This document shows positions 8,954 to 45,824 of a stretch of 64,000 nucleotides of DNA, piece by piece; the first letter of the stretch is position 1, and every line of letters begins with the position of its first letter. The DNA is taken from assembly GCF_016917355.1 (NCBI RefSeq), contig NZ_CP070304.1:372001-436000 (forward strand), in the 5' to 3' direction. This DNA is from Glaciimonas sp. PAMC28666 (lineage in GTDB: Bacteria; Pseudomonadota; Gammaproteobacteria; Burkholderiales; Burkholderiaceae_D). The notes below the pieces were generated by a model that had not been told where the DNA came from, did not search any database, and saw only the letters and a list, made by a program, of their open reading frames with translations. The position numbers and the translations under genes are program-made.

Positions 8954-8956
8954 GGT

Positions 8957-10303: not shown

Positions 10304-10391
10304 GTCTTTCTCTCCCACCTATTATTTAATACCATCACGTTGATATTTATCATCAAAATCTTTCTTCAAACAGATATTCGAGGTCCATTTA

Positions 10392-11744: not shown

Positions 11745-11755
11745 AAATTCCCTCC

Positions 11756-13063: not shown

Positions 13064-13117
13064 AACTCGTATCTACTTTGATTGATCTGGATACCAACAA
13101 TTGCAAAGGTCGCGGAC

Positions 13118-14152: not shown

Positions 14153-14238
14153 AGAGATTGCTCGGTATAAATGAAATTGGCTGGAATGTCGGAATCGGAA
14201 AAGCGAAAGCAGGATGTGCAGTGACCAGCTTGGCTGGC

Positions 14239-17691: not shown

Positions 17692-17823
17692 GCCCAGTCG
17701 CCTTTTTTGGTAATTCTATGAAAATTTTCTTGAAAGCAATGATACTTAAGTTTGGCAACTTTACTCGATCATTTAATGATTGAAAACGACGTGACAATCA
17801 CGAAAATTTGTATTAATCGTTTA

Positions 17824-17851
17824 AGCAAACCTTGGTATGCCAAGGTTTGCT
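17824..17851 (-). terminator. perfect 12-bp stem-loop after the collagen-like gene
   Basis: AGCAAACCTTGG (17824-17835) pairs perfectly with CCAAGGTTTGCT (17840-17851) around a 4-nt loop. It lies 18 bp beyond the stop of the collagen-like gene. The minus-strand continuation is TAAACG rather than a U-run, so it may be a weak terminator or an mRNA 3'-end stabiliser between this gene and the TpsB gene. Confidence 0.55.
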
Positions 17852-17868
17852 CCTTACAAGGTAGACGA

Positions 17869-30092: not shown

Positions 30093-30955
30093 GCGCGCCT
30101 CCTGATCAATCCTACGGGAAACAGAATCAGCAACACGACCATCAATCCATAGATGACGAAAGCGCCAATGTCGGGTACGTAATATTTGCCAGCCACATCG
30201 AAAACACCCAGAATAAGCGCTGCCAAAAGCGGCCCCTTGATGGTTCCAGCGCCGCCAACAACGACGACCAACAGGAAGTACACCATATATTTAATCGGGA
30301 AGGTAGGATCGAGTCCAAGCACATCAATACCAAGGCCGCCGCCCAAGCCAGCCAGACCGGAGCCCAGCGCAAAAGTCAGACTGAACACGCGACTGACGTT
30401 GATCCCGAGACCGGCCGCAGCTTGCTGATTATCGACCGAGGCGCGGATCTGGGCACCGAAACGGGTGCGCTCAAGCAAGATACCTAACGCTAGCGTGATG
30501 AGTACCACCACTCCAATCAGGAACAGCCGATACGCACCCACGTCAAGGCCCAGGAAACGGACCTGTCCGCGCAGCCAATCGGGCAAATTGACCGGCTGCT
30601 GGGAGGGGCCCCAAAGGTACGTGGCACCAGCGACTGCCATGAAGGTCAGCCCGATGGAAAAAAGGACTTGGTCCAGATGACTAGCCTTGTATAGCCGCCG
30701 ATACAGCAACCGCTCCAGGATCAGCCCTGCAACGGCGCTGACAACAAATGCCAGCGGCAGCGACAACAGGAACGGCACTCCCATTCGGGACATCAACATA
30801 ACGCAGACGTAACCGCCCAGCATCGCGAAAGCACCGTGCGCCAGATTGACAAAGTTCATCAACCCCATCGTTACCGACAGGCCGACGCTGATTAAAAACA
30901 ACAAACTGCCGTAAGCAATGCCATCAAACAGCACGCCAATAAAATTGCTGATCAT
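30089..30955 (-). CDS. livH: LivH-type branched-chain/aromatic-acid permease
   Basis: A 288-residue membrane protein with MNFVNLAHGAFAMLGGYV (about 32-49), typical of LivH, and RASVDNQQAAAGLGINV as the loop contacting the ATPase. First gene of a livHMGF operon with overlapping starts and stops. A perfect GC-rich hairpin lies 1 bp before its start codon, and no Shine-Dalgarno sequence is visible. Confidence 0.9.
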   Translation of the reverse strand: MISNFIGVLFDGIAYGSLLFLISVGLSVTMGLMNFVNLAHGAFAMLGGYVCVMLMSRMGVPFLLSLPLAFVVSAVAGLILERLLYRRLYKASHLDQVLFSIGLTFMAVAGATYLWGPSQQPVNLPDWLRGQVRFLGLDVGAYRLFLIGVVVLITLALGILLERTRFGAQIRASVDNQQAAAGLGINVSRVFSLTFALGSGLAGLGGGLGIDVLGLDPTFPIKYMVYFLLVVVVGGAGTIKGPLLAALILGVFDVAGKYYVPDIGAFVIYGLMVVLLILFPVGLIRRRA

Positions 30956-31410
30956 GCCGACCGCCTGCGGTCGGACAGAAGCCGAGTTCGAACTAATTCG
31001 GTAAGTGAAATTTGCATGATGCGACTGGTCCCCTGATTTTTTCTTATGGGGTCTATAGTTGCATATAAATCAGGTAAACCGTACCACCAATTGCTAAATT
31101 ATCAAGCTCGTACGAGGTTGCCGTCGATGGGCGTTAACGGCTCACAATGTTGCCCGGGGGAATAAATACTGCCCAGGTGTGGATTTTCGTTTAATAAGTA
31201 TGGATACAAGCCGCCCCAACACGCGACGATTGATGAGATAAATGTTGGCATGGACATTCCGATGGTCTTCGGCAGGTCGCATACCGCAACATAAATCAAT
31301 GAGAGGGGCCATCGGGACAGCCGGTCGCGGCGAGCAAGCATTTAACTGATTAAATATAAAACGACCGTCGTTCAGAAATTTCCAGAATCAATGGTCGGCT
31401 GGCCTCGTAC
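30956..31410. other. 455-bp region between livH and the nag genes
   Basis: Contains the hairpin at 30957-30974. A 79-codon minus-strand frame (31102-31341) has no recognisable domain and I do not call it a gene. Presumably holds the livH promoter and the end of the sialic-acid operon, but no clear terminator was seen. Confidence 0.55.
30957..30974. repeat. perfect GC-rich stem-loop abutting the livH start
   Basis: CCGACCGC (30957-30964) and GCGGTCGG (30967-30974) form an 8-bp stem with a 2-nt loop. Read from livH it ends 1 nt before the ATG, exactly where the ribosome site should be. Confidence 0.6.
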
Positions 31411-32433
31411 TTAGTGTGTTTTAGTCACCTTAGAGAGGTGACGCGGCACATCCGGGTCGAAACCCCGCAGTCGCGCCACCGCTTCCACCATCGGATAGAA
31501 GCTTTGAATAGCCAGAATCGGATCTAGCGCAGGCAGGTCTGCAATAAACAACGTCAAATCACGTTCCGCTACATCAGGCGGAGCCGCCAGCAAGACACGC
31601 GCTCCACGTGCACGCATTTCCCGCGCTGTGGCGATTAAGCCTTCCTGCGCTGGGCCACGCGTGGCGAATATCAAAATCGGATAGCCCTCCTCCACGAGCG
31701 CCATCGGACCATGTTCGACCTCCGCGCTCGAAAACGCTTCCGCCTGAATTGCACAGGTTTCCTTAAATTTCAGTGCCGCTTCCATCGCTATCGAATGACT
31801 CCAACCGCGCCCCAAAACCATAATCCGGTCAGCATTGCCCAAAATGCTAAAGGCTGCACTCCAGTCTTGCACGGATGCGAGCGCGAGTTGCTCAGGTAAC
31901 TTTACCAGCGCTGCGAGCATCGGTTGGTCATTAGCCCAATGCGCCACTAATGCAGCGCTGGCAGTCAGGCTGGCAATAAAGCTCTTGGTGGCAGCGACAC
32001 TTTTTTCTGGCCCGGCGACTAGCGGAAGGACCCATTCACTGGCCTCCGCTAACGGAGAAACCGGATCGTTCACCATGGCAACCGTCGTTGCGCCGCCATC
32101 ACGCAGATAACGCATCGGTCCGATCAAATCAGGACTTTGCCCCGATTGCGAGACGGCGACCGCCAGCACCTCGGCAGCCTCGATGGGCGAGCGATACAGG
32201 GTAATCAGGGACATCGGCAATGAAGTCACCAGTTTTCCTAACTGCGCCATCACCAGATAGGCGAAATAAGCCGAGGCGTGGTCAGAACTACCGCGCGCGA
32301 TGGTGACTACCGACCGCGGAGGTTGCGCGCGTAGTTTCGCTCCAAGCTCAGCGTAGATCGCTGTGTTCTGGGTAAACTGGGCGGCGACCGCCTGGGCGGC
32401 TGCACGTGCCTCTTTAAGCATGAGTGATGTCAA
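31411..32433 (-). CDS. nagB: SIS-domain glucosamine-6-phosphate deaminase (NagB-II type)
   Basis: A 340-residue protein with two sugar-isomerase (SIS) domains: VTIARGSSDHASAYFAYLVM and SQSGQSPDLIGPMRYL in the first, MVLGRGWSHSIAMEAALKFKET in the second. It resembles the isomerase half of GlmS, without the glutaminase. In amino-sugar clusters such proteins deaminate glucosamine-6-P to fructose-6-P. TTG at 32433 is preferred because AGGAGAG lies just upstream; an ATG at 32421 is too far from it. It overlaps nagA and is the last gene of the cluster. Confidence 0.85.
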   Translation of the reverse strand: MTSLMLKEARAAAQAVAAQFTQNTAIYAELGAKLRAQPPRSVVTIARGSSDHASAYFAYLVMAQLGKLVTSLPMSLITLYRSPIEAAEVLAVAVSQSGQSPDLIGPMRYLRDGGATTVAMVNDPVSPLAEASEWVLPLVAGPEKSVAATKSFIASLTASAALVAHWANDQPMLAALVKLPEQLALASVQDWSAAFSILGNADRIMVLGRGWSHSIAMEAALKFKETCAIQAEAFSSAEVEHGPMALVEEGYPILIFATRGPAQEGLIATAREMRARGARVLLAAPPDVAERDLTLFIADLPALDPILAIQSFYPMVEAVARLRGFDPDVPRHLSKVTKTH

Positions 32434-33526
32434 TTAACTCTCCTTCTATATAGACTGATTTAAGTTGTAAATGGCGATCTAATACCACCAGATCTGCCCA
32501 GCAATTCTGTGCCAGTCGCCCCCGGTCCGTGATACCGAGAAAACGTGCCGGATTGGCCGACAAGCGATTCGATGCATCATGAATCGTCAGGCCAATAGCA
32601 ACCAGATTACGCAACGCCTGATCCATCGTCAGCGTGCTGCCAGCCAGCGTTCCATCTGCCAGTCTGACGCCACCCAGGCACTTGGTAATAGTCTGGCCGC
32701 CTAACAGATAATTGCCGTCTGGCATACCGGCTGCGGCGGTTGAATCGGTCACGCAGTACAGGTGCGGAATACAGCGTAAAGCGGTCCGGATTGCACCAGG
32801 ATGTACATGCAACAGATCGGGAATAATCTCTGCAAAATCGGCGTGCGCCAATGCGGCACCGACCATGCCAGGTTCGCGGTGATGAAGACCGGTCATCGCA
32901 TTAAACAGATGCGCAAAGCTGCCAGCACCACGTTTCAATGCCTCCACACCATCTTCATAACTACCCAGCGTGTGTCCAAGCTGGACCTGGATATCGTTTG
33001 CTACTAAAGTTTCAATTAATGCAGCGTGACCGCTTACTTCAGGGGCAATCGTTACCAGTTTCACCGGTACGATATCGTTGTAGCGCGACACTTCTTCGGC
33101 GACACCACAGCGCGCAAAATCCGGTTGTGCGCCGAGTTTGCCTGCGTTGATATACGGGCCTTCCAGATGAATCCCCAGCATCCGTGCGCCACCTGCGGTG
33201 CGTTGTTGACGCATGGGTGCCAGATCGTTTAGCGCCCGCTCGATTTCAATGCCTGGGGCTGTCATCGTGGTTGCCAGGAATGCGGTCGTTCCATGGCGTG
33301 CATGCAAACGCGCTACCACTGCGCCGGCGCCATTGGCCTCCATGATATCGACACCGCCGCCGCCATGGACATGCAGGTCTATAAATCCCGGAAGAATGTA
33401 AACATCATTGTTGTCAGCCGGATTAACCGGTGCGCCGTTGATACCGCCAATCCGATCACCAAAGGTGATCTCACCATGTATCCAACCATCCGGCGTCAGA
33501 AGGTTACCGCCAAGTTGTAGGTTCAT
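32414..33526 (-). CDS. nagA: N-acetylglucosamine-6-phosphate deacetylase
   Basis: A 370-residue amidohydrolase. Metal and catalytic motifs: DLHVHGGGGVDIME (HxH, about 49-62), HLEGPYINAGKLGA, VQLGHTLGSYEDGVEA, FAHLFNAMTGLHHREPG and VTDSTAAAGMPDG with the catalytic Asp. It removes acetate from GlcNAc-6-P to give glucosamine-6-P, the substrate for the overlapping downstream deaminase. Confidence 0.93.
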   Translation of the reverse strand: MNLQLGGNLLTPDGWIHGEITFGDRIGGINGAPVNPADNNDVYILPGFIDLHVHGGGGVDIMEANGAGAVVARLHARHGTTAFLATTMTAPGIEIERALNDLAPMRQQRTAGGARMLGIHLEGPYINAGKLGAQPDFARCGVAEEVSRYNDIVPVKLVTIAPEVSGHAALIETLVANDIQVQLGHTLGSYEDGVEALKRGAGSFAHLFNAMTGLHHREPGMVGAALAHADFAEIIPDLLHVHPGAIRTALRCIPHLYCVTDSTAAAGMPDGNYLLGGQTITKCLGGVRLADGTLAGSTLTMDQALRNLVAIGLTIHDASNRLSANPARFLGITDRGRLAQNCWADLVVLDRHLQLKSVYIEGELIDITHA

Positions 33527-33562
33527 TTTTTCTCTTAATTGAATAGTTTAGAGACGACACGA

Positions 33563-34465
33563 TCACACTTGAGACCATTGCATGATTCCAGCCAGACCCG
33601 CATCTGCACCAAGCAGCGCCGCAGTGACCGGCACCTGCGCCAACCTGGAACCTTGCGCCAGCGCCTGACGTATGCGTTCGAGCATGCCGTCAGCCAGCCC
33701 GACGCTGCCACCGATCACGACTTCGTCGATATCCAGTATCATCTGAAAATTACTGATTGCCTCCGCCACCGCCATCGCCGCATTGTCAATAATTGCCTCC
33801 GCCTCGGAGTTTGTTCGGGCCATGGCGAACAACTCCTTGCTGTCGATGCGACGGCCAAACACAGCGCTTGCCTGGCGTGCAAGTGCGGTACCGGATGCCA
33901 CTTTTTCGAGACAGTCGCATCGACCGCAGCCGCACTGTACATCGCCGTCAACAGGTCCACGGGATAGCGTTGTATGTCCTATATGGCCAGCAAGTCCCTG
34001 CCGTCCGATACGCAGTTGCTGATCCAAGACCAGCCCACCACCAACCCCCGTCGATAGTGTGATAAACAGCAGACTCTCTGGAGCAATCGAGACTGTAGAG
34101 CTTTTACGGACCAAGTACTCTCCCCAAGCCGCCGCTTGCCCATCGTTCATTAACACTACCGGGCAGGCAAAGCGTGTATTCAGATGAAGCTCCAATGGAA
34201 AGCCATCCCAAAATTCGATGATGTGCTGATTCACTGAATACACCTTGCCACCATCGATATAGCCTGTTGCCGCGACCGCAACCCGCTCCGGTGCAGGCCA
34301 ACCCAACACCAATTGGTTGATGGCGTCCATAAAACCGGTCGGTTCGGTCGCCATCGGTTGCTGGCGACGTTCGATGATCTGCCCCTTATTTACCCAGGCA
34401 GCGGCAATTTTGGTACCGCCTATATCAATCGCCAAAAGCGTATCAATTGGCTTGTTGATTGACAT
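33563..34465 (-). CDS. nanK: ROK-family N-acetylmannosamine kinase
   Basis: A 300-residue ROK kinase: phosphate-binding AIDIGGTKIAAAW, FITLSTGVGGGLVLD, then HIGHTTL and the zinc motif CGCGRCDCLE. The start is ATG at 34465, a few bases after the nanE stop; the longer frame to 34513 lies inside nanE. Directly following nanE, it most likely phosphorylates ManNAc to ManNAc-6-P. A glucokinase-like role cannot be excluded from sequence alone. Confidence 0.85.
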   Translation of the reverse strand: MSINKPIDTLLAIDIGGTKIAAAWVNKGQIIERRQQPMATEPTGFMDAINQLVLGWPAPERVAVAATGYIDGGKVYSVNQHIIEFWDGFPLELHLNTRFACPVVLMNDGQAAAWGEYLVRKSSTVSIAPESLLFITLSTGVGGGLVLDQQLRIGRQGLAGHIGHTTLSRGPVDGDVQCGCGRCDCLEKVASGTALARQASAVFGRRIDSKELFAMARTNSEAEAIIDNAAMAVAEAISNFQMILDIDEVVIGGSVGLADGMLERIRQALAQGSRLAQVPVTAALLGADAGLAGIMQWSQV

Positions 34466-34470
34466 CTTGA

Positions 34471-35154
34471 TTACCCCTTGAGCACGGTTTGCTGCATCGC
34501 TGCGATAAACCATTCCGTGATATGTTCGATACGGGTAATAGCAGAACCAACGGTGACCGAAAACGCCCCATGACTAAGCGCATCCGCAGCTTCCGCGGCG
34601 GTGCGTATCCGGCCCTCTGCCACCACCCGTGCACCGGCAGTTGACAAACGCCGCACCAGCACCAGATTCGGCACGTCTGCAGGCTGATCGGCGGTTTCAT
34701 CGGTATAACCAGAAAGTGTGGTTCCTATCAGATCACAACCCAGCGCCAGCGCCGCCAGACCATCTGTTTCTGTCGAGCAATCAGCCATAGCCAAACGCCC
34801 CGCTTGATGAACGGCCGTTAAAAGGTTCTCAACACTCTCTGGACGGATGCGCCGAGTAGCATCGAAAGCGATGATCGCCGCACCGGCCTGAATCAAATCT
34901 TCAACGTCTTCCAGATAAGGCGTTATACGCACCGGGCTATCGGCCAAATCGCGCTTCACAATGCCAATGACCGGCACATTGACGGAAGCCACCACGGCAC
35001 GTACATTGTCAGCGCCTTCGATGCGCAGACCACCGGCTCCGGCAGCGACTGCCGCGCAGGCCATAGCAACGATGATGTCTTGCCTGTCCATTGGACCGCC
35101 CGGCACAGGCTGGCAGGAGACGACGAGCTTATTTCTGATTTGTTCGATATTCAT
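34471..35154 (-). CDS. nanE: N-acetylmannosamine-6-phosphate 2-epimerase
   Basis: A 227-residue TIM-barrel protein with NanE motifs: [13 protein letters not shown] at the N-terminus, [53 protein letters not shown] and [17 protein letters not shown]. It converts ManNAc-6-P to GlcNAc-6-P. ATG at 35154 is taken over the upstream frame at 35214. Its presence is the strongest single marker that the cluster handles sialic acid. Confidence 0.92.
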
Positions 35155-35223
35155 ATGAAAATAAACACTTAAATAACTTGTAAGACCATGAACGACGGCC
35201 GGTATGACTACCAATACCTAACG

Positions 35224-36264
35224 TCAGGGAGTGGGGAGCACCTCAACAGCAGCCTGTGTTTCATACAGCAAGCATGCGACATTGTGCTGCGGGCCTAATT
35301 GATACAATTTAGGGATCTTTTCGCGACATTTCTGAAAAGCTTGCGGACAACGCGTATGGAACACGCAGCCGCTGGGCGGATTTAGCGGACTGGGGATTTC
35401 CCCCTGCAATGGCTCGTCGTCAGAAAAGACCAGATCCGGATCGGCAATGGGCGAGCTTTTCCAAAGCGCCTGGGTATAGGGATGCTTTCCGCCCTGAACA
35501 ATGGCTTCACGCGGTGCATATTCCATCAAGCGCCCCAGGTAAAGCACCAACACGCGATTGCAAACGGCTTGTACCATCGGTAAATCGTGCGAGATAAAAA
35601 TGATCGAGAGATTAAATTCCTTTTGCAGATCGAGCAGCAGATTGATGATTTGCGCTTTAACCGAGGCATCCAGCGCTGCTACAGCTTCATCGGCAATAAT
35701 GACCTTTGGCTTGAGCGCCAATGCGCGCGCGATCACGACGCGTTGCTTTTGGCCACCGGACAACTCATGCGGGTAGCGATGCAGCACACTTGCCGGCAAA
35801 CCGACGATATCCAGCAAACGTAAAATTTCCTGAGCTTGCTCTAGCTTGCTGCCGCGCTGATGCAGGACAAATGGTTCGCGTAAGCTCTGCTCTATCGTCA
35901 AGCGACTGTTCAGGCTGGCATTTGGGTCCTGAAACACCATCTGTACGTCACAGCATAATTGCTTGAGTTCAGCTCCCCGATAATCCTGAAGCAATTTTCC
36001 TTGATATCTGATCGCCCCGGTGGTCGGCTTCAGAAGCCGCATACCCAACTTTCCCAATGTTGATTTACCACTACCGGATTCGCCAACAATACCCAAAATT
36101 TCACCCGGCTTGAGAGTGAAAGAAACTTCTTGCACGGCATGCAACGAACGTACTTTTCCAAACATGCCGGTTTTGGTAGAAAACTGAATACCAACATTTT
36201 CAAAGGAGAGAATACTGTCGGTGATTTGGGGGTTGTTCGCGTTCAGGCTAACATTTACATTCAT
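35224..36264 (-). CDS. peptide-type ABC importer ATPase (OppF-like)
   Basis: A 346-residue ATPase with Walker A GESGSGKSTLGKL, signature LSGGQKQRVVIARAL and Walker B VIIADEAVAALD. The C-terminal oligopeptide/dipeptide domain includes a Cys-rich GCVFHTRCPQAFQKC. ATG at 36264 overlaps the stop of the OppD-like gene (ATGA). One of two ATPases of the importer encoded here. Confidence 0.9.
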   Translation of the reverse strand: MNVNVSLNANNPQITDSILSFENVGIQFSTKTGMFGKVRSLHAVQEVSFTLKPGEILGIVGESGSGKSTLGKLGMRLLKPTTGAIRYQGKLLQDYRGAELKQLCCDVQMVFQDPNASLNSRLTIEQSLREPFVLHQRGSKLEQAQEILRLLDIVGLPASVLHRYPHELSGGQKQRVVIARALALKPKVIIADEAVAALDASVKAQIINLLLDLQKEFNLSIIFISHDLPMVQAVCNRVLVLYLGRLMEYAPREAIVQGGKHPYTQALWKSSPIADPDLVFSDDEPLQGEIPSPLNPPSGCVFHTRCPQAFQKCREKIPKLYQLGPQHNVACLLYETQAAVEVLPTP

Positions 36265-37253
36265 GGCTGATCCCCAAAATGGCAACGGACCAGATGACCG
36301 TCAAGATCCATTAAAGGTGGATTAGTCGCCTTGCAAAGGTCAGTTGCCTGATTACATCGATTCGCAAACCGACAACCAACCGGCTCTCCAAATACAGGTT
36401 CCACCTGTCCGGGAATGCCGTAAAGACGTCCTTCCACATTGGGATTCGGGATCGATGCGAGCAGGCCTTTGGTATAAGGATGTCGTGGACGCTTAAACAA
36501 CGTTCGAGTCGTGGTTTGCTCGACTAACTGGCCCGCATACATCACTGCCACACGGTCAGCAATTTGCGCAACGACGCCCATATCATGGGTAATAAAAAGA
36601 ACACCCATTCCTACTTCGCGCTGCAACTTGCGTATCAAACGTAAAATCTGAGCCTGGATGGTGACATCCAGCGCCGTGGTTGGCTCATCTGCAATCAACA
36701 CCGCGGGCTTGCAAGCAAGCGCAATCGAAATCATCACCCGCTGCCGCATGCCACCAGAGATTTGATGTGGATACTGTCTGGCGCGTGTCTCCGGATCGGA
36801 GATGCCGACCAGGGTCAACAACGATAACGCACGATCACGCGCTTCTTCTTTTGAGCTATGCCCGTGTGTCACCATGACTTCGGCGATTTGGTCCCCGATC
36901 CGATGTAGAGGGTTTAGCGAGGTCATCGGTTCCTGAAAAATCATTGCCACTCGATTTCCCCGAACCCGTTGCATGTCACCCGCGGAAAGAGACAACAGAT
37001 CGACCGGATTATCCTGTTGATCTTTAAGCCATACCTGGCCAGCAATTCCGACCTGTCCACTCAATAAACGCATGAGCGAAAATGACGTCACCGATTTACC
37101 GCAACCGGATTCACCGACAATCGCCAGCGTTTCTCCGCGTCGTAATTGAAAATTTAAATCGTTGACGGCATTAACTAAGCCAGCCGGCGTCCGGAAGGTC
37201 GTCGTTAGCCCTTTTACATCGAGGATTACATTAGAACCAAGCATATTCTTCAC
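36261..37253 (-). CDS. peptide-type ABC importer ATPase (OppD-like)
   Basis: A 330-residue ATPase: Walker [13 protein letters not shown], signature [15 protein letters not shown], Walker [15 protein letters not shown]. The C-terminal [14 protein letters not shown] motif is typical of OppD/DppD. It pairs with the OppF-like ATPase to drive the two permeases encoded further upstream. Confidence 0.9.
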
Positions 37254-37357
37254 CTATTTCTTATGCCACTCGTCATGCTAGTCAGCTAGCACCACGTCGC
37301 CAAAAATTTTTCAAAATGCTTGGCTCCGCAGTGAATGGTGAACCACGCTATCGTGCG

Positions 37358-38287
37358 TTATAGCAGTCCGGCGGTGACTAATATAGCGCGTATTTTTTCA
37401 ATCGCTGCATCAGGCAATACGCGATTCGGACGACTCATATGACGGTTTTCGATCAGGCCCATCAAATGCAACGCTGTCTTAAATCCTCCCACGCCCGATG
37501 CGTTTGGACTGGTATACGGCACGCCGTGGAAGACAATAGCGAACAGGGCAATCAGACGATGTTGTTCGGCGCGCGCAGTTTCCCAATCCCCGGCTTTCGC
37601 GGCGTTATACAGACGCACGTAACCGGCCGGATCAACATTACCCAGCCCGGGCACATTACCGTGTGCGCCGCCCAGAAGAGCATAATCAACTAGCGTTTCG
37701 GAACCGGTCAGAATGGCAAAATCCGGCTGATCGGCAAAGTCGCGCATCAGCATACGCATATTGCCATCATCGCCACTACTGTCTTTTACCGCGCATATAA
37801 TCTTGCGCTCATATAGTTCACGAATGGTTTCCCGCGCCAGTTTGAGTTGCACACAGACCGGAATATCGTAGGCAATGATAGGAAGATCCACTGCGTCTTT
37901 GATGTAAGAAAAATGATCGACCGTTTCAGCTTGACTGGTACGGGTATAAAACTGTGCTGTCACAACGAGACCATCGACGCCCAGTTCTTTCGCCTGGCGC
38001 GCGTACTCAATCGTGCGATCGGTCGTTGGATCAATGACCCCGGCGACCAGAGGCACACGACCTCCGGCCTCCGCTACTGCAACTTCCATGACATCGGCGC
38101 GTTGTTGCGCATTCAAAAAAATCACTTCACTGGTCGAACCCAGCAAAAACAGGCCATGCACGCCACCATCCAGCAAATGACGAATAACGCGCCGCAAGCT
38201 AGGTTTATCGACCTTATAATCATGGGTCAGGGGCGTAACAACCGGGGGGATAATTCCGTGCAATTTCAACGTAGACATTGTGTTCAT
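37358..38287 (-). CDS. nanA: N-acetylneuraminate lyase / DHDPS-family aldolase
   Basis: A 309-residue class I aldolase. Catalytic Lys lies in IICAVKDSSGD (about 168) and the catalytic Tyr in LPIIAYDIPV (about 140). The substrate-binding motif reads GSTSEVIFL rather than the usual GSTGE. Family members include sialate lyase (Neu5Ac to ManNAc plus pyruvate), dihydrodipicolinate synthase and keto-acid aldolases. Placement among nanE, nanK and nanM makes sialate lyase the best reading. The gene lies between the permease and ATPase genes, overlapping the OppC-like stop by 4 bp. Confidence 0.75.
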   Translation of the reverse strand: MNTMSTLKLHGIIPPVVTPLTHDYKVDKPSLRRVIRHLLDGGVHGLFLLGSTSEVIFLNAQQRADVMEVAVAEAGGRVPLVAGVIDPTTDRTIEYARQAKELGVDGLVVTAQFYTRTSQAETVDHFSYIKDAVDLPIIAYDIPVCVQLKLARETIRELYERKIICAVKDSSGDDGNMRMLMRDFADQPDFAILTGSETLVDYALLGGAHGNVPGLGNVDPAGYVRLYNAAKAGDWETARAEQHRLIALFAIVFHGVPYTSPNASGVGGFKTALHLMGLIENRHMSRPNRVLPDAAIEKIRAILVTAGLL

Positions 38288-39141
38288 TCCTTCATAGTTT
38301 TAGGGTCAAAAGCCTGGCGTAACCCGTCGCCAATAAAATTTGCAGAAAGAGCGGTAATGACAATAAGCGCACCTGATGGCAACCAGATCCAGGGGTATTG
38401 CTGAAGAATGGATGCTTCGCGTGCGATGCTGAGTAAACTCCCCCAGCTTGCATCGGGCAATTGCACACCAAGACCCAAGAAGCTCAATCCGGCCTCGGCC
38501 ATAATGGCGCTAACAAATCCAAGAGATGAAAACACCACCAGTACATCTGTGGTGTTCGGTAAACAGTGTTTGAATAAGATATAACCGTGTCCTGCCCCCA
38601 GCGTTTTGGCGGCAGCAACAAACTCCATCTCACGCACACTCAATATGCGTGCTCGCACCAGACGGCACACCAGCGGCCAGGAAAGCAGGCCGATAATCAT
38701 GATGGTTTTACCAGTACCTGACCCAATCACGGCAGACAACGTCATCAATACGATAATGGTTGGAAATGTCATGACGATATCGACAAAGCGCATAATCAGA
38801 TTGTCCAGCCAGCCGCCGAAATAACCGGCAACTCCTCCCAGAACCGTGCCGATGACGACCGCGAGAACAACACTACACGCACCAACTAACATTGAAATCT
38901 GCCCTGCGGCCATAGTGCGTGCCAGCATGTCTCTGCCAGTCTGGTCCGTGCCAAGCCAATGCAGGTGCGAAGGCGCTTGCAGCGAGGAACTCAAATCAAT
39001 CGCGTTCGGATTAAATTGAAATAACCAGTGTGAAAAAAGGCAGATAACGGTTATCAGTAGAAACACGCACACACCCAGCATGGCAATCCTATTGGCACGA
39101 AACTTCTGCCATTTGCTCGCTCTCAGATTGTTACCACTCAT
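38284..39141 (-). CDS. peptide-type ABC importer permease (OppC/DppC-like)
   Basis: A 285-residue permease with about six helices. N-terminal SKWQKFRANRIAMLGVCVFLLI is typical of OppC, then HWLGTDQTGRDMLARTMAAGQ and the EAA loop EFVAAAKTLGAGHGYILFKHCLPN. Its start is 77 bp from the stop of the OppB-like gene. Confidence 0.92.
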   Translation of the reverse strand: MSGNNLRASKWQKFRANRIAMLGVCVFLLITVICLFSHWLFQFNPNAIDLSSSLQAPSHLHWLGTDQTGRDMLARTMAAGQISMLVGACSVVLAVVIGTVLGGVAGYFGGWLDNLIMRFVDIVMTFPTIIVLMTLSAVIGSGTGKTIMIIGLLSWPLVCRLVRARILSVREMEFVAAAKTLGAGHGYILFKHCLPNTTDVLVVFSSLGFVSAIMAEAGLSFLGLGVQLPDASWGSLLSIAREASILQQYPWIWLPSGALIVITALSANFIGDGLRQAFDPKTMKE

Positions 39142-39218
39142 GTCGTCACTCTTGATTTAATAAAAAATTTATGGGCCGTAAAAAAAAATGGCGCTTCCAA
39201 CGCACGGACAATGAGCAT

Positions 39219-40172
39219 TTATTTGAGCGTTATCCGAGGGTCTATCCATGAATAGATAATGTCGGTAATAATGTTGATGGCTAATATTGCTAGCGCCATG
39301 AATAATGCGATGCCCATAATCAACGGATAGTCGCGGCTTTCAATGCCGTCCAGAAACAGCATCCCCATACCGGGCCAGGAAAACACGACCTCTACAAAGA
39401 CTGCACCGCCAATCAGTGCACCAAAATTCGCAGCAATCACCGTAACAATTGGAATGAGCGTGTTCGGCAGTGCATGTCGCACCATCACTTGATACGGCGA
39501 TAATCCTTTTGCAGTCGCAGTGCGCACATAATCTTGCGTCATTACCTCTAGTAAGCCCGATCTGGTATAGCGCATCAGGATCGCAACGAATTGCACCGCG
39601 AGTACGATCGATGGCAACACCAGATGATGCAGAATGTCGATCCAGCTACCGTCGCCGGGAATGGAATATCCTCCCGCAGGAAACCATCCCAATTTCAGTG
39701 AAAAAATATACATCCCCGCAATCCCAACCAGAAAGGCCGGACAACTAATCGCCAGATAGGCGAGCACAGACAGAATATAATCAGTCTTTTTATTGTAATG
39801 TCGCGCCGAAACGATACCAGCCAATATGCCAAGCAACGAACCCAGGGTTAGTCCGGAAAACGTCAGCATGAACGTTGCCGGGATACGGCTCGCGATCGCT
39901 TCCGTTACTTTTTGTCCGTCTTTATACCGATACCCTAAATCGCCCTGGGCGACTTTTTTAATCCAGACAAAAAACCGTACAGGCATGGGAGCATCAAGTC
40001 CCAAATCGTGTCGCAAGATGTCTTTTTGTTCGCTCGTTAGTGATTGCGTGGGAGGCACAAAAGCGTCCACAGGGTCTCCGGGGGCCATGTTAATCATCAC
40101 AAAAATTGCGATTAATATGGCAAATAGTGTCGGAACATTCACCAGAATCCGACCAAACAAATATTTCAGCAT
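39219..40172 (-). CDS. peptide-type ABC importer permease (OppB/DppB-like)
   Basis: A 317-residue permease: MLKYLFGRILVNVPTLFAIL at the N-terminus, MAPGDPVDAF, and the EAA loop DYVRTATAKGLSPYQVMVRHALPN. With the OppC-like protein it forms the transmembrane channel of the importer. Confidence 0.92.
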   Translation of the reverse strand: MLKYLFGRILVNVPTLFAILIAIFVMINMAPGDPVDAFVPPTQSLTSEQKDILRHDLGLDAPMPVRFFVWIKKVAQGDLGYRYKDGQKVTEAIASRIPATFMLTFSGLTLGSLLGILAGIVSARHYNKKTDYILSVLAYLAISCPAFLVGIAGMYIFSLKLGWFPAGGYSIPGDGSWIDILHHLVLPSIVLAVQFVAILMRYTRSGLLEVMTQDYVRTATAKGLSPYQVMVRHALPNTLIPIVTVIAANFGALIGGAVFVEVVFSWPGMGMLFLDGIESRDYPLIMGIALFMALAILAINIITDIIYSWIDPRITLK

Positions 40173-40244
40173 GTGTTATCCCGACGCTCGCCTAAGGGTG
40201 CGTAATTTATTTCAGGTTAATGACGACAAATTAAGGATTAAAGA

Positions 40245-41804
40245 TTAATGCAGAGACCAATTTTCCGGAAAGTCCTGATATCGTCCGCCGCTCGGTGCTG
40301 GCGTCCAGATGACATTTTTGGCATTCTTGGCGACACCACCGAAACGGTTGGTCATCCATAACGGAATCCACGGCAATTTTGCATTGGTTAGCCGACAGAC
40401 GTTTTTATAAATTTTCGTACGCTTGACATCGTCTGCTTCTATTTGACCAGCCTTAAACAAGCGATCTAATTCCGGCAGATTTACCCGCATTCGGTTCGCA
40501 CCTTTTGGTGGCGCGTCGGTTGATGCCATCAATGGCGCCAGTACGCTGGGATCCGGGCCATTTCCACCGCCGGCAAATACCATACTGAATTTACCTGACT
40601 CAACCATTTGCGAAAATGTTGCCACGTCAACGAACCGCGGTCGGATGTTAATCCCTATATCGCCTAACATTGCCTGTAAAGAAGACACGACATCTTTGGA
40701 TACTTGATCGCCATAATAAGTTAGCAACTCAATCGGTAAATCATGATTCAGTTTATGCCACCCGGCATCTGTCAGAAGTTGCTTTGCCACCGTCACATTC
40801 ATCGCATATGGATTGATATCGGCTGGTACAAATTTGGGTAGCGATAACACGCAATTACTTAGCGTTGCTTCGTTACCGTAGATATATTTGATGATGGCGT
40901 TACGATCAATGGCCAGCAAAATGGCCTGACGAACTCGCACATCTTTGAAGCGTGGATCGTTATTATTAACCCCAATGTAATTCAGCACATTCGATGGGCC
41001 GGCAATCACATTGAATACACTATTGTTCCGACTCTGTTTAACTTGATCCAGCGTCAAATAAGTGTGCTGGATTTCTCCAGCTTGTAAAGCAATTGATGCC
41101 GAACTTCCATCTTTGAAATAGCGATTGATTAGCTTATTGAGCTTTGGACGACCGCGATAAAAGTTTTTGTTTGCGTCTAGCTCAACGTATTGATCGGGTA
41201 AATACGCATGCCATTTAAAAGGGCCTGTGCCAATCGGCTGCTTCCACCAATCAGAATTGCGCAGCTCTTTAACCGACATTTTTCCAAGCAAATGTTCAGG
41301 AACAATCATGATGCTGGTAAATGCATCCGGCAAAGAAGCATCCAGCGTATCTAGCGTTAACACCACGGTGCTATCGTCCGGCGTTTGAATGTCGGTGACA
41401 TGATTCAACCGCGCAGAAAAGCTACTTGCCATGTCAGGGTTTTTGATTAAATCAAACGTGAATTTAACGTCTTTTGCCGTAAACGGAGCACCATCGTGCC
41501 ACTTCACTCCTTTACGTAATTTGATTATCATGCTTTTTCCATCGGCAGAAAAAGCCCAGCTCTGCGCTAAGTCACCATTGATTTTTTCAAGCGCGGCATC
41601 GTATAACGTTAGCGTACTAAAATATTTATTGTAAAAACTAAATCCGGCGCTGGCAGTTAAAGGATTGAATTTTTGGGCATTACCACTGGGGCCCACATCA
41701 AAAGCGCCAACAAATATCTTCTCTGCTGCTATCCCCGTACCGCTGCCAGCTAGCAGCATTAGTGCAGTCAACAACATCAGAAGTTTTTTATTGAGTTTCA
41801 ACAT
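40245..41804 (-). CDS. extracellular solute-binding protein family 5
   Basis: A 519-residue binding protein with a signal peptide (about 1-26, ending GIAAE). Family 5 features: FNPLTASAGFSFYNKYFSTL, LRKGVKWHDGAPFTAKDVKFTFDLI, PIGTGPFKWHAY and RFKDVRVRQAILLAIDRNAI. Family 5 proteins usually bind peptides, but SatA of Haemophilus ducreyi, a sialic-acid binder, belongs to the same class. Context here suggests a sialic-acid or sialoside ligand; this is inference. Confidence 0.88.
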   Translation of the reverse strand: MLKLNKKLLMLLTALMLLAGSGTGIAAEKIFVGAFDVGPSGNAQKFNPLTASAGFSFYNKYFSTLTLYDAALEKINGDLAQSWAFSADGKSMIIKLRKGVKWHDGAPFTAKDVKFTFDLIKNPDMASSFSARLNHVTDIQTPDDSTVVLTLDTLDASLPDAFTSIMIVPEHLLGKMSVKELRNSDWWKQPIGTGPFKWHAYLPDQYVELDANKNFYRGRPKLNKLINRYFKDGSSASIALQAGEIQHTYLTLDQVKQSRNNSVFNVIAGPSNVLNYIGVNNNDPRFKDVRVRQAILLAIDRNAIIKYIYGNEATLSNCVLSLPKFVPADINPYAMNVTVAKQLLTDAGWHKLNHDLPIELLTYYGDQVSKDVVSSLQAMLGDIGINIRPRFVDVATFSQMVESGKFSMVFAGGGNGPDPSVLAPLMASTDAPPKGANRMRVNLPELDRLFKAGQIEADDVKRTKIYKNVCRLTNAKLPWIPLWMTNRFGGVAKNAKNVIWTPAPSGGRYQDFPENWSLH

Positions 41805-41861
41805 GCATACCCCGGAATATCGGTCAGATTGTTTTCTAAAAAAGTAAAAAAATTCTATAAA

Positions 41862-42581
41862 CTATTCGTCCATCTTTACTTCAGCTTCCAGCTCAACACT
41901 AAGGTCTTCCGGATAGCTATCAACAATCGATTGGAAATGCTCGCGATGCGCGGATAACACGCCAAAAACATCTTTCTTTTCAAGCATATTGACAACGCGC
42001 AAATGATCTTTGGCGGTTGCTTCCAGCGCCCAATGGTCCACGGAGCGAGCGGATTGATTCATCTCATTAAAGACTTTCCAAAATAAATCAATCAATGACA
42101 GAAGAAAATCGTTCTTTAAGCAGCTATACATTTCGGCATGAAAGTCGCGATCCTCTTGCTCAAATGTCTGCTTATCCAATGCTTTGCTCAACATGCGTTC
42201 ACCTAATGCCCTCAAGCGCTGAATACTCTCGGGGCTGATACGCTCGACTACTGCGGGTATCGCGCCCAGCTCAAGGTATTTGCGAACGTGCAAAAGCTTT
42301 TTAACATTCTCGTCGCCCTCATTCATTGAGTACGGCAAATTTTCCACAATTGAATCAAAGGAAAATTCTTTAACAAAAATCCCTTCTCCGTGCCGTGACT
42401 CTACGATACCAAGCGACTCCAGTGATTTAACCGCCTCCCGTAGTGAAGGACGACTGACTCCCAGATTTTTGGCAAGCTGCGCCTCAGGGGGCAAACAATC
42501 ACCGAATTTCAAATTATTAATTTTGATGAATTTCTTGATTTCAATTTGCACTTGGCGATATGCCGGAACTTTAGTTGTCAC
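41862..42581 (-). CDS. FadR-family GntR regulator of the sialic-acid cluster
   Basis: A 239-residue regulator. The N-terminal GntR winged helix includes FGDCLPPEAQLAKNLGVSRPSLREAVKSL and a GIVESRHGEGIFV wing. A helical FCD ligand-binding domain follows (FEQEDRDFHAEMYSC; DHLRVVNML). GTG at 42581 is chosen because GGAGAG lies 6 nt upstream. The longer frame to 42755 runs through the end of nanM. E. coli NanR belongs to the same family. The two palindromes at 43807 and 44286 are its probable sites. Confidence 0.88.
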   Translation of the reverse strand: MTTKVPAYRQVQIEIKKFIKINNLKFGDCLPPEAQLAKNLGVSRPSLREAVKSLESLGIVESRHGEGIFVKEFSFDSIVENLPYSMNEGDENVKKLLHVRKYLELGAIPAVVERISPESIQRLRALGERMLSKALDKQTFEQEDRDFHAEMYSCLKNDFLLSLIDLFWKVFNEMNQSARSVDHWALEATAKDHLRVVNMLEKKDVFGVLSAHREHFQSIVDSYPEDLSVELEAEVKMDE

Positions 42582-43734
42582 TTGAATCTCTCCGAAAAAA
42601 GTCTGGAACGGTGGACGGTGCCGCTTCGTCAGGATGCGCCAGGAACAAAGTGTCCAGACAAGGGACCCCATCCTGCGTATCACCGCCGACAAACAACAGC
42701 CCCGCTGCAACTTGAAATGACAGCCCATGTGCGCGTGCAACGGGCAATCTGCCAACCATTATCCAGACATCATCCCGAAAAACATATATTTCATTACGCC
42801 AGGTTTTTAACAAACCCGAATGAGCGTAAAACTTTCCCGCATCGTAACGGCGCCGTGCGCCCGGAAAATTGGTGCCGCCTGCCAACATTGGATATCCACC
42901 CCAGCAGCCAGAAAATGCAGCGGCAACACCTTCTTGCGGCGCAATCTCACTTATGAGCGGTAAATGCGCCTCATCAAGCCATTTCACACGACCATCGGCA
43001 AATATCGCACGTTTCACAGAATCCGATCTCAATCCAGGCTTGACTTCGCCACTCAACAAATAAATGTTTCCCTGATGCTGAATCACACTACTGCCGCAAT
43101 TCGGCGAATGGTCCACTGCGCCGAGGTTTTTCCACGCCAGAGTTAGCACGTTAAGTTGCCAGACGCTCCCGTTCCATGCATAGTCCTGCACCGGCCTTGC
43201 CATAAACACCTCTAACGCCTGCGACTGTTGCGAAGGAGCAAGCGCCGTATACCTTGCAAAAAATGCATTAAATTGCGTGGCGTTATAACCGCCAAAGAAC
43301 AAAATATGCCTATCGTCTACACACATTGCAGACGCTCCCAACAAACCGATAGGTAAATGTGTCGACAGGCAGGTCCAGCTATCCGATAACGGGTTGTAGC
43401 AATGGACAACATCAAATTGCGCCAAACTAGCCGATGCATTAGTGCGCCCGGCACCGCCAAACACATAAATCTTTCCATCCACGACTGCAGACACTGCCCC
43501 ACACGGCACGGCTGCCGGGAAGTCTGCCAGACGCTGCCATGATTTCGGCATCAGCTGCGTATCCAGTCCAAACCACGCATTGCCAACTGTGCCCAAACCG
43601 GCATAAAGCACAGTCCCTACCTGCGCGCCTACAGCCTCCCTCAAAATCATTGGAAAGGACGGCCACACAACGTTTTCATTCAGATCCTGATCACACACTA
43701 TTTTTATGCCCATCGTTAAGACGCTCTTTGACAT
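42571..43734 (-). CDS. nanM: kelch-repeat N-acetylneuraminate epimerase
   Basis: A 387-residue six-blade kelch protein with NanM hallmarks: VLYAGLGTVGNAWFGLD, KIYVFGGAG, HILFFGGYNATQFNAFF and PMLAGGTNFPGARRRYDAGKFY. NanM speeds alpha/beta mutarotation of sialic acid released by sialidases. In E. coli it is periplasmic, but here no signal peptide is visible from MSKSVLTMGIKIV or from the alternative ATG at 43713. Its end overlaps the regulator start by 11 bp. First gene of the minus-strand cluster. Confidence 0.87.
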   Translation of the reverse strand: MSKSVLTMGIKIVCDQDLNENVVWPSFPMILREAVGAQVGTVLYAGLGTVGNAWFGLDTQLMPKSWQRLADFPAAVPCGAVSAVVDGKIYVFGGAGRTNASASLAQFDVVHCYNPLSDSWTCLSTHLPIGLLGASAMCVDDRHILFFGGYNATQFNAFFARYTALAPSQQSQALEVFMARPVQDYAWNGSVWQLNVLTLAWKNLGAVDHSPNCGSSVIQHQGNIYLLSGEVKPGLRSDSVKRAIFADGRVKWLDEAHLPLISEIAPQEGVAAAFSGCWGGYPMLAGGTNFPGARRRYDAGKFYAHSGLLKTWRNEIYVFRDDVWIMVGRLPVARAHGLSFQVAAGLLFVGGDTQDGVPCLDTLFLAHPDEAAPSTVPDFFRRDSSDN

Positions 43735-43806
43735 TACGCCCAAGTTTGTTAGGGGCGCTGATCTTGAATCGGTCCGCCTAGATCGAAGTATTGCACCTCG
43801 GTGGTA

Positions 43807-43821
43807 AGATGTCAAACATCT
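43807..43821. promoter_or_regulatory. operator-like palindrome upstream of nanM
   Basis: AGATGTCAAACATCT has perfect 6-bp arms around a 3-nt spacer. It lies about 75 bp before the nanM start. Nearly the same sequence occurs at 44286-44300 on the porin side. Candidate site for the FadR-type regulator encoded downstream. Confidence 0.6.
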
Positions 43822-44285
43822 AAATTAGCTTAATCCACTGAATCTAATGCCACTGACCTGGCTAAAACAACTGCCGGAAAAAGGCGTTATTATCCCAAAG
43901 TCATATTAAGTCATTGATTAATATAAATAAAATTTCTCCGGCTCATGCCGCATAGGCTAAAAAAATGACATCTGAATCATAATGACCCCAAAAAATTTAC
44001 TGAAAAAAAATGCATCCTATGCGGGAAAAATCGATATTCCCATCACTTCCCAACCCCGCCTACCCATTCCAGACAAATAATCTCTCATTTTTCCGTAAAG
44101 TGATCTTACTTCTAATTTAAATTCACAAATAAAAATTAAAAACATCAAAATATCGATTTAGTAAAAAAAGTCTATTTTTGTCTAGATATCTTCAAAAAAA
44201 TTAAAAAAACCATCTAAAACAACACAGATACTTAAAAAACGCTTGCATGAGCTTTTTTTCGAATGTTAATATTCAACCGGAAGTT

Positions 44286-44300
44286 AGATGTCAGATATCT
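44286..44300. promoter_or_regulatory. second operator-like palindrome, porin side
   Basis: AGATGTCAGATATCT matches the 43807 site in 13 of 15 positions; its arms pair at 5 of 6. It lies about 275 bp upstream of the porin start and 479 bp from the first copy, so looping or control of two promoters is possible. Confidence 0.55.
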
Positions 44301-44574
44301 ACCAGTATATTCCTAAGAAAAACTACTGACTCGTCATAAGCGGTACGGGGTTTAAGAAAATTCTTACTCAATGCTTTTGTCTGAGAGTTATTTTCGGAAT
44401 CGGTGCTGCGATGGGCCCTTGGGTCTCGCGCATCCTCTTGTGTTCCGAAACCAGGCAATCGCAGAGTTAGACACAAACGGCTGAAATCAAAGACGATGAC
44501 CTAATTTGAAATAGGTCAATGATTGAAAAGAGTTTCGGCATTTCCCCTCTCCATAATCTTACAATTCATACGAC

Positions 44575-45678
44575 ATGAAAATAAATAAAATTGTAGTCCT
44601 GGCGACACTTGCTGCAGCGACGGGACTCGCTACAGCACAATCCACCGTCACGTTCTCCGGACGCGTTGACGGAGGATTTGCGTATCTGAATCAGGTGCAA
44701 ACATCTACTGGTGGAACGGCATCGCGGTTTGGGACGCAAAATGGCGACTGGGGCGTCGGGATGATAAATGTCACTGGCGCAGACAACCTGGGGGGAGGAA
44801 ACAAGGCCATTTTCGTTATCTCTGACGCGGTCAAAATCATGACGGGAATGGGGGGTGCTTCTTTTCGAAAATCGTTTGTGGGCCTTTCAAGCAACGACCT
44901 CGGGACGATAAAACTTGGCCGCGATCTTTTCATCAGCAATGGCGTCACTATGATCGACCCTTTTGTGCAGGAATTGTTTGGCTCCGCTTCACTTGTGCGC
45001 GGCCGCAACTGGCAGCAAACGAATAGCAACATCACCTACCTGAGCCCATCCTATAGTGGCTTTGACGTCGCCGTCCAAAATTCGCTTCCCGGCCAGACGG
45101 CTAATTTTAATGCAGGCACTCCGGGCGGATTCGGTAGAACCGATGGCATCCAGTTAACCTATCAATCGGCGCTGTTCGACGTTCGTGCTATTTATGACGA
45201 AATGCGGGATAGCAACGGTCAGTTCAGTAATGTATTTACGTCCTCTAAAGAGTTAGTAATCGGGGGCAATCTGCGCATTCAAAAATTTATAATTCAAGGT
45301 GCCGTAACCCGAATGGTAGCGCCAGATACGCCGACTGGGCTTGCTAAGACGGCAAATCATTACTGGCTTGGATTTAATTACGGCATGACGCCAGCGCTGT
45401 TATTGACAGCGGGGGTCTATCGTATCGATGTCGGCCGGGGCAATGCAAATGCGACACATGACGGCCAAGGTCACGCCACGATGTTTGAATTGGGCGGCAC
45501 ATACAACCTGTCCAAACGCACCTTTCTGTACGCAAACGTTGGTTACGTGAAAAATGGTTCAAATGCCACCTTCTCGTTAGAACCGAATAACCCGGGTCTG
45601 AACAATAACAATCTGGACAATCCCCTCCCCGGCCACGCGCAAGCCGGCTCTTACGTCGGTATTAATCAATCGTTCTAA
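44575..45678 (+). CDS. general outer-membrane porin (OmpC-like trimeric type)
   Basis: A 367-residue porin. A signal peptide (1-21, ending ATAQ) precedes the first strand STVTFSGRVDGGFAYL, then GGNKAIFVISDAVKI and FRKSFVGLSSNDLGTIKLGRD, a classic beta-proteobacterial porin pattern. NITYLSPSYSGFDVAVQNS is strand 6-7. The C-terminal residue is Phe (INQSF), as needed for barrel assembly. No obvious Shine-Dalgarno lies before the ATG. Divergent from nanM, it may provide outer-membrane entry for the cluster's sugar substrate, like NanC in E. coli although of another family. Confidence 0.9.
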   Translation: MKINKIVVLATLAAATGLATAQSTVTFSGRVDGGFAYLNQVQTSTGGTASRFGTQNGDWGVGMINVTGADNLGGGNKAIFVISDAVKIMTGMGGASFRKSFVGLSSNDLGTIKLGRDLFISNGVTMIDPFVQELFGSASLVRGRNWQQTNSNITYLSPSYSGFDVAVQNSLPGQTANFNAGTPGGFGRTDGIQLTYQSALFDVRAIYDEMRDSNGQFSNVFTSSKELVIGGNLRIQKFIIQGAVTRMVAPDTPTGLAKTANHYWLGFNYGMTPALLLTAGVYRIDVGRGNANATHDGQGHATMFELGGTYNLSKRTFLYANVGYVKNGSNATFSLEPNNPGLNNNNLDNPLPGHAQAGSYVGINQSF

Positions 45679-45749: not shown

Positions 45750-45824
45750 TGGTGGAAAGTGCAAGTTTCGAACTTGCGACCCTCGCAGTGTGAGTGCGAT
45801 GCTCTACCCCTGAGCTAACCTTCC
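45750..45824 (-). tRNA. tRNA-Val (CAC)
   Basis: The minus strand folds into a standard cloverleaf. The acceptor is GGAAGGT / ACTTTCC with one G-T pair, the D-arm GCTC-AGGGGTA-GAGC, and the anticodon arm TCGCA-CTCACAC-TGCGA with anticodon CAC. The variable loop is GGGTC and the T-arm GCAAG-TTCGAAA-CTTGC. The CCA end is encoded (45750-45752). Reads GUG codons. Confidence 0.93.

Follow-up and report, generated by a model that had tools for sequence, protein, structure and literature searches.

How does a soil bacterium take up and degrade sialic acid, and is the peptide-class importer that accompanies its catabolic genes a relative of SatABCD, the sialate importer of Haemophilus ducreyi? The question is raised by a stretch of 64,000 nucleotides from Glaciimonas sp. 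PAMC28666 (contig NZ_CP070304.1), hereafter the window, to which coordinates refer unless another locus is named. It contains 12 minus-strand genes at 31411–43713 and a divergent porin, which together make up the sialate cluster discussed here. The strain comes from Antarctic soil, and its genus places it in Oxalobacteraceae, in agreement with the host guessed in the first-pass annotation of this sequence; the main text of the paper describing it does not use the word "sialic" (PMC10618363). We consider it likely that the cluster provides for the uptake and use of free sialate by means of a distinct ATP-binding cassette (ABC) importer, a cytosolic NanM and GntR-type control, and that its transfer was aided by IS6-family insertion sequences (IS). 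The substrate, its transport, the regulation, the mobility and the cytosolic role of NanM are all read from sequence comparisons. The pathway as such would be a known one, and what appears to be new is the different importer group and the relocated NanM.

According to this proposal, the food would be free sialic acid, most likely N-acetylneuraminic acid (Neu5Ac), which would pass the outer membrane via the divergent porin and be handed by a family-5 binding protein to an ABC importer of OppBCDF type, whose lineage would differ from that of SatA. Cytoplasmic NanM would then open the sugar ring for a lyase that prefers the open form, the lyase would split the open sialate into pyruvate and N-acetylmannosamine (ManNAc), and NanK, NanE, NagA and NagB-II would convert the latter to fructose 6-phosphate, acetate and ammonia. 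A protein with GntR and FCD domains would control the genes from nanM to nagB as well as the porin through AGATGTnnnACATCT boxes. In 2009 the Nan cluster had been reported among Gram-negatives only from Gammaproteobacteria and Fusobacteria (PMC2693436). Free-living sialate users and horizontal transfer have become known since then (PMC10570557, PMC8754123), so sialate use outside hosts, which the first-pass annotation regarded as notable, is already in print. Our literature search, which covered few subscription journals, found no paper joining sialic acid, nanA and Oxalobacteraceae.

Catabolic genes and the sialate assignment

All genes named in the first-pass annotation were recovered by Pfam and NCBIfam searches, with order and strand as given there, and the catabolic set nanA, nanE, nanK, nagA and nagB is complete in the window. 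The lyase gene (37358–38287, minus strand, as are all genes of the cluster except the porin) is embedded between oppC, which it overlaps by 4 bases, and oppD, as had been noted before. Its product matches Pfam DHDPS with 188 bits and is 47% identical across 302 residues to the N-acetylneuraminate lyase (NAL) of Corynebacterium glutamicum (CgNAL), and 28% identical to the canonical NanA of Escherichia coli. The catalytic Lys and Tyr as well as the G-S-E-T sugar site of CgNAL are retained. CgNAL is a characterised Neu5Ac lyase, which both cleaves and makes Neu5Ac (PMC5380162), and because of the 47% identity to it the earlier identification of a sialate-catabolic cluster can be regarded as well supported. 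Among the other enzymes, the ManNAc-6-P 2-epimerase NanE (34471–35154, start revised) exceeds the cut-off of PRK01130 (291 against 189 bits), and the N-acetylglucosamine-6-phosphate deacetylase NagA (32414–33526) that of TIGR00221 (250 against 226 bits).

Several observations weigh against this assignment. The top NCBIfam match of the lyase is dapA (160 bits, below the cut-off of 206), and both NanA models remain below their cut-offs (132 bits with a cut-off of 281, and 125 with a cut-off of 382). At the position of the GXXGE motif of NAL the window protein has GSTSE, and the Gly-to-Ser change occurs in nine of the ten window-type lyases aligned. The ROK-family ManNAc kinase NanK (33563–34513, the longest form of its frame) scores slightly below the cut-off of PRK05082 (269 against 283 bits), and NagB-II, the SIS-type glucosamine-6-phosphate deaminase (31411–32433), far below that of NF046059 (288 against 430 bits). 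CgNAL itself is phylogenetically nearer to dihydrodipicolinate synthase (DHDPS), is also DHDPS-active and has a non-canonical sugar site (PMC5380162).

The subgroup of lyases to which CgNAL and the window protein belong is also that of actinobacterial nan clusters; a FadR-type regulator is usual in those of Actinomycetia (PMC8754123). The window differs from CgNAL and the actinobacterial clusters (C. glutamicum's own cluster lying outside the comparison) in GSTSE for GXXGE and in the type of importer, and further in the nanM gene beside its cluster, which occurs in none of the 33 actinobacterial loci read. Eight Oxalobacteraceae genomes, that of the window included, carry the cluster (see below); five of them have a sialidase (PF13088), four a SASA acetylesterase and six a second NanM. 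Pfam searches of the window genome and of its sister genome G096 found no sialidase, SASA acetylesterase or second (secreted) NanM, which suggests that the Glaciimonas of the window is a scavenger of sialate.

The importer and its relation to SatABCD

The importer comprises a binding protein (40245–41804) with a hydrophobic N-terminal export signal, judged by inspection, whose sole Pfam match is SBP_bac_5 (282 bits), an OppB-type permease (39219–40172), an OppC-type, Opp4C-like permease (38284–39141), and ATPases of OppD type (36261–37253) and OppF type (35224–36264, start picked among several start codons of the frame). Both permeases contain BPD_transp_1, paired with BPD_transp_1_N or OppC_N, and ABC_tran with oligo_HPY was found on each of the two ATPase genes, which bears out the first-pass description of an ABC importer of the peptide class whose two ATPases are separate proteins. 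Judged by architecture (an SBP_bac_5 protein, peptide-class permeases and ATPases, linkage to nan genes), the system would belong to the class ST3, in which a published survey places SBP_bac_5 sialate importers (PMC8754123). ST7/SAT2, the importer of 2,7-anhydro-Neu5Ac, has an SBP_bac_1 binding protein (PMC8754123), and the window binding protein matches SBP_bac_5 only.

Phylogeny gives a different picture. Among solved chains the window binding protein scores 162 bits with Lmo0135, 157 with AppA and 81 with H. ducreyi SatA (5yyb/5z99/5za4). For a SatA-type reference set, 396 actinobacterial genomes were searched with the window lyase, of which 30 were positive; the 33 loci compared consist of 29 neighbourhoods, L018, and the added L019, L161 (Arthrobacter) and L165 (Nonomuraea). 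Thirty-one of them encode a SatA-type binding protein, and none showed in L131 and L144. The window type is represented by 22 clusters chosen besides the window: seven from Oxalobacteraceae, three from family f91 and 12 of 96 plasmid records. In phmmer comparisons the actinobacterial SatA-type proteins reach 266–574 bits with SatA and at most 71 with the window protein, and the window-type proteins 332–1096 bits with the window protein and 59–104 with SatA (129 and 34 for a second fragment from L162). The window type and the SatA type form separate groups with support of 100 in each of the trees of binding proteins (65 rows, leaving out two L162 fragments, a short L161 fragment, and L131 and L144, which lack a passing open reading frame), OppB (58 rows) and OppC (58 rows); the SatA-type permeases in these trees are from actinobacterial loci, with neither H. 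ducreyi SatB/C nor the C. glutamicum binding protein included. The ATPase arrangement separates the two types as well. Of the 31 actinobacterial loci of the SatA type, 30 have Walker A and LSGG motifs within the OppC reading frame, as against 0 of 22 window-type loci, so the SatA-type OppC looks like a permease–ATPase fusion, and the Arthrobacter gene is annotated as one; in the window the permease and the ATPase are separate genes. The term "Sat-like" used in the first-pass annotation therefore fits the family-5, peptide-class architecture beside sialate catabolic genes, which the window shares with H. ducreyi and the actinobacterial relatives, and goes too far as regards the kinship of the binding protein.

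Could the importer nevertheless be a diverged SatABCD, whose deep split reflects fast evolution rather than a separate recruitment? The two types share Pfam families and the ST3 classification, one lyase subgroup goes with both, and the approximately unbiased (AU) test did not reject a joint clade, either for the binding proteins (p 0.081, 31 rows) or for joined binding protein, OppB and OppC sequences (p 0.078, 23 rows). These tests count against a separate lineage. Given the bit scores, the split at full support in three trees and the distribution of the ATPase motifs, we nevertheless regard a diverged SatABCD as unlikely: the importer would stem from a lineage other than that of the SatA type, and a common origin is disfavoured.

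The closest solved relatives of the binding protein, Lmo0135 and AppA, are peptide-class proteins, and in a careful tree of 31 chosen binding proteins the window clade adjoins them, weakly (87/92), so that the grouping with proven peptide binders named in the first-pass annotation as a refutation was found in part. This again speaks against a sialate importer and raises the possibility of a transporter of peptides or muropeptides that is only housed in a sialate operon, sialate entering by another way. We hold this to be very improbable: the lyase gene follows oppC in all 22 other window-type clusters (for the unannotated L162 and L164 only its presence was established), the cluster holds no second sialate importer gene (a statement about the cluster and not the rest of the genome), and the binding protein and the lyase occur in nearly identical plasmid genera (96 and 100 records). 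SatA binds Neu5Ac and N-glycolylneuraminic acid with nanomolar affinity via a His-Ser pair and an Arg (PMC10017367). AlphaFold2 modelling of the window binding protein from five sequences was too poor for mapping of such a site (mean predicted local distance difference test score 45, predicted template modelling score 0.34), and the model was not used.

Tentatively, and with somewhat less than even confidence, we suggest a further-reaching interpretation of the distinct lineage: it may be a previously unrecognised importer class, common to Deinococcus, Rhizobiales and Oxalobacteraceae, that was derived, separately from SatABCD, from a peptide transporter of App/Opp type and is paired in Oxalobacteraceae with a NanM that has lost its export signal and become a cytosolic "openase" in place of YhcH/NanQ. 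A review distinguishes three families of sialate ABC importers (PMC10017367); a separate family-5 lineage, if true, would be the fourth, and an SBP_bac_5 protein adjoining nan genes should then not be equated with SatABCD.

NanM, the regulator and the putative operator

The lyase NanA prefers Neu5Ac in the open form, and NanM speeds up the lyase in vitro (PMC8141875). In E. coli it is the cytosolic YhcH that opens Neu5Ac for the lyase; NanM, being periplasmic, can give no help in vivo (PMC8141875). The E. coli nanATEK-nanQ(yhcH) system with its NanM carries out the same catabolic steps as proposed for the window cluster and uses a member of the same NanM family, and it differs in its canonical NanA, in an importer of the major facilitator superfamily (NanT), and in possessing YhcH: none of the eight cluster genomes matches PF04074, for which the E. 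coli control was positive.

The window nanM, encoding an N-acetylneuraminate mutarotase, occupies 42571–43713. Its open reading frame as listed reaches 43815, but in G096 the frame opens only at the position equivalent to ATG 43713, which we therefore take as the start; the listed starts of gntR and nanE are likewise too early, the likely ones being 42581 and 35154. The protein exceeds the cut-off of the YjhT-family model TIGR03547 (338 against 256 bits) and matches Pfam NANM with 318 bits, and stays under the cut-off of NF010730 (336 against 416). It keeps the Glu and Arg of the motif GE.KPG.R, which we take to be catalytic residues of NanM; the motif is retained in all 18 NanM proteins compared. 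We looked for export segments as uncharged hydrophobic 10-mers before the NanM domain on the Kyte-Doolittle scale, allowing every possible start codon. No 10-mer reaching 0.9 was found in seven of the eight in-operon copies; in the window protein the best one scores 0.85, and only from the earliest TTG start, so that by hydropathy it lacks an export signal of the E. coli kind. The six second NanM copies have 10-mers of 2.15–2.57, and three of the four Deinococcus proteins of 1.9–2.6 (D. deserti has none). In a tree calculated with the N-termini removed, the in-operon proteins of all eight genomes fall into a single clade (100/99), to which neither the second copies nor the Deinococcus proteins belong; the second copies group weakly (55/31). 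L053 has a long branch in this tree.

The absence of an export segment, the separate clade and the lack of a YhcH match together suggest that the in-operon NanM probably became a cytosolic opener of sialate for the lyase. Two points weigh against this: the absence of a signal peptide was judged by hydropathy and not by SignalP, and the in-operon copy of G259 is ambiguous, as it reaches a 10-mer of 1.57, though only when read from an upstream TTG. The G259 copy, the periplasmic location of E. coli NanM (PMC8141875) and the export segments in the second NanM of six of the eight genomes and in most Deinococcus proteins would also fit an in-operon NanM without any function in the cytosol, either because it is exported in some other way or because it is inactive. 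With seven of eight copies devoid of an export segment, a clade of their own, a retained motif and no YhcH found, we judge this the weaker explanation, although one with an appreciable chance of being right. A cytosolic NanM would make the recent proposal that the lyase needs a substrate-opening enzyme testable in nature, evolution having apparently used a different protein for the task.

The regulator gene (41862–42581) has a likely GTG start preceded by GGAGAG and encodes GntR and FCD domains; its best NCBIfam match is NanR, at 89 bits, with the cut-off of 260 not reached. A putative operator, the exact palindrome AGATGTCAAACATCT, lies before nanM (43807–43821), and a second one, deviating at a single position, is situated at 44286–44300 in the nanM–porin interval; this box is unlike the GGTATA repeat of E. 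coli-type NanR (PMC8012715). With one mismatch at most, the pattern is found beside the 5' end of the nanM open frame in all seven other Oxalobacteraceae clusters, and hence in eight of eight with the window. The seven relatives contain eight matches in 133,370 bases, with about 0.3 expected (an estimate for uniform bases), the eighth being closer to the porin of G. soli. In D. ficus the operator stands between nanM and gntR, and a scan of eleven further loci, three from Deinococcus and eight rhizobial, gave no match at this stringency. The significance of the box is lessened by the fact that the pattern was picked after viewing the window sites, and with up to three mismatches it is not enriched in the window (20 sites, 19.9 expected by chance). 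The porin (44575–45678, plus strand) has Porin_4 as its sole Pfam match at E ≤ 0.001, and the NanC/KdgM porin family was not matched. Intergenic gaps in the cluster, calculated with the revised starts and the longest form of nanK, range from −43 to 104 bases with several overlaps, so a single operon is plausible.

Distribution and mobility of the cluster

At E ≤ 1e-100 the binding protein occurs in eight of 294 Oxalobacteraceae genomes, that of the window counted, in five of 44 genera, and in three of the five same-genus genomes listed. A neighbourhood survey of this family, as proposed in the first-pass annotation, found the order nanM-gntR-SBP-oppB-oppC-nanA-oppD-oppF-nanE-nanK (SBP, the binding protein gene) in all seven other genomes, so the arrangement is more than chance. 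The eight genomes are Glaciimonas (three), Janthinobacterium (two), G252, G259 and Collimonas antrihumi, in which the cluster is split across two contig ends. NanE (PF04131) was matched at E ≤ 0.001 in 215 of 288 Oxalobacteraceae genomes, 19 above the cut-off, and only nine have a NanE of more than 230 bits, the remainder reaching at most 29 bits. Two of these nine, G045 (contig 26) and G124 (contig 215), have their strong NanE with neither this importer nor this lyase nearby, which may indicate another route for sialate or ManNAc. In wider samples, a lyase search at E ≤ 1e-50 in 399 Burkholderiales genomes found the window genome only, probably because the sample held few positive genomes, which leaves the family-wide survey with the binding protein as the more telling one, and the binding protein (E ≤ 1e-60) was found in four of 398 Pseudomonadota, namely that of the window and three of family f91. 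Out of 72,556 plasmid records, 96 contain the binding protein (E ≤ 1e-80) and 100 the lyase (E ≤ 1e-60); both are present in plasmids of Rhizobium (80), Deinococcus (4), Neorhizobium (4), Microvirga (2), Phyllobacterium (2), Sinorhizobium (2), Pelagibacterium (1) and Shinella (1), and at these limits the lyase alone in Arthrobacter (2), Embleya (1) and one more.

The four Deinococcus plasmids read carry the same binding protein (52–53% identity), permeases and lyase (62–63%), a GntR protein, nanM, nanE, nanK and nagB-II (in D. psychrotolerans seen only as a tblastn match), and one has a sialidase. They differ from the window in that nanM is divergent and, in three of the four, encodes an export segment, and in that the ATPase genes follow nanK in two clusters and are not listed beside the other two, for which the gene table is incomplete.

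A different picture emerges in some rhizobia. The fetched stretch contains nanE in 17 of the 22 window-type clusters (in Collimonas on the second contig), and the stretch read for five, all rhizobial (L084, L085, L086, L097, L100), does not; genome-wide, the three f91 genomes yielded a single weak NanE match (23 bits, 28.6 with neighbours). A second DHDPS-family gene ends the operons of L084, L085, L086 and L097 (the last being the one tested with Pfam) and is divergent in L100, which suggests that some of the rhizobia may use the module for a different keto acid. As rhizobial copies occur without nanE, we discarded the idea of the module as an invariable marker of sialate. Gfo/Idh/MocA-type oxidoreductases were observed beside the module in L094, L096, L098, L163 and L164. 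Since such enzymes process anhydro- or dehydro-sialates in other systems, these clusters may use those sugars too.

One may ask whether the binding protein, permeases and lyase are specific for some other 2-keto-3-deoxy sugar acid throughout (e.g. 2-keto-3-deoxynononic acid, or an anhydro- or modified sialate), the nan genes processing its product. The rhizobial versions with a second DHDPS-family gene, the oxidoreductases in five of 23 window-type loci, the GSTSE motif and the unusual sugar site and DHDPS activity of CgNAL (PMC5380162) can all be read in this way, and the points about nanE count against sialate. However, the Oxalobacteraceae partners are NanE, NanK, NagA and NagB, several relatives have a sialidase and a sialate esterase, and the G-S-E-T site is kept. 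Moreover, among the 33 actinobacterial loci, whose lyases are of the same subgroup, nanE is likewise missing from the stretch read in 10, one of which, L018, comes from a genome with no NanE at all. We consider another sugar acid quite improbable, and gene context, the lyase and the recurrence in three bacterial groups favour sialate as the substrate.

An indication of mobility comes from G096 (L051), where inverted IS6-family copies (Pfam DDE_Tnp_IS240) at 2392–3214 and 17456–18278 bracket the whole cluster in the manner of a composite transposon. The two copies are 95.9% identical over 824 alignment columns. The IS itself aside, similarity between G096 and the window stops at the borders of the cluster itself (31408 and 45688) in a comparison extending about 2.4 kb and 0.7 kb past the IS copies. 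A degraded IS6-family relic of 92 bases remains in the window at 31200–31291; it is 85% identical to one of the G096 copies and 79% to the other. The IS6 flanks and the patchy distribution support the view that the cluster was transferred in one piece; it is probably mobile and would have moved with the help of IS6 elements, which suggests a route by which free-living bacteria gain sialate use. A tRNA-Val gene (cac, 45750–45824), a possible integration landmark, starts 71 bases past the porin end of the cluster.

Two arrangements in the related loci were also observed. In L099 and L160 (Shinella and Rhizobium anhuiense) nanE and genes annotated as a sugar ABC importer are divergent to the module, so that two sialate importers possibly adjoin each other, and a NanE-ROK kinase fusion protein is encoded in L098 (1990–3603, Microvirga ossetica) and L160 (9992–11509). 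As for the surroundings of the window cluster, the first-pass annotation placed it next to cold-adaptation genes; a six-frame scan of the window found no G[FYW]GFI cold-shock motif, other cold genes not having been searched. Genes of an Urt/Liv-type branched-chain ABC transporter lie immediately downstream of the cluster (27612–30955), and further away there are Tad/Flp-type pilus genes on the minus strand (8027–14242) encoding a TadA-like ATPase, a T2SS-F domain, a secretin and RcpC/CpaB.

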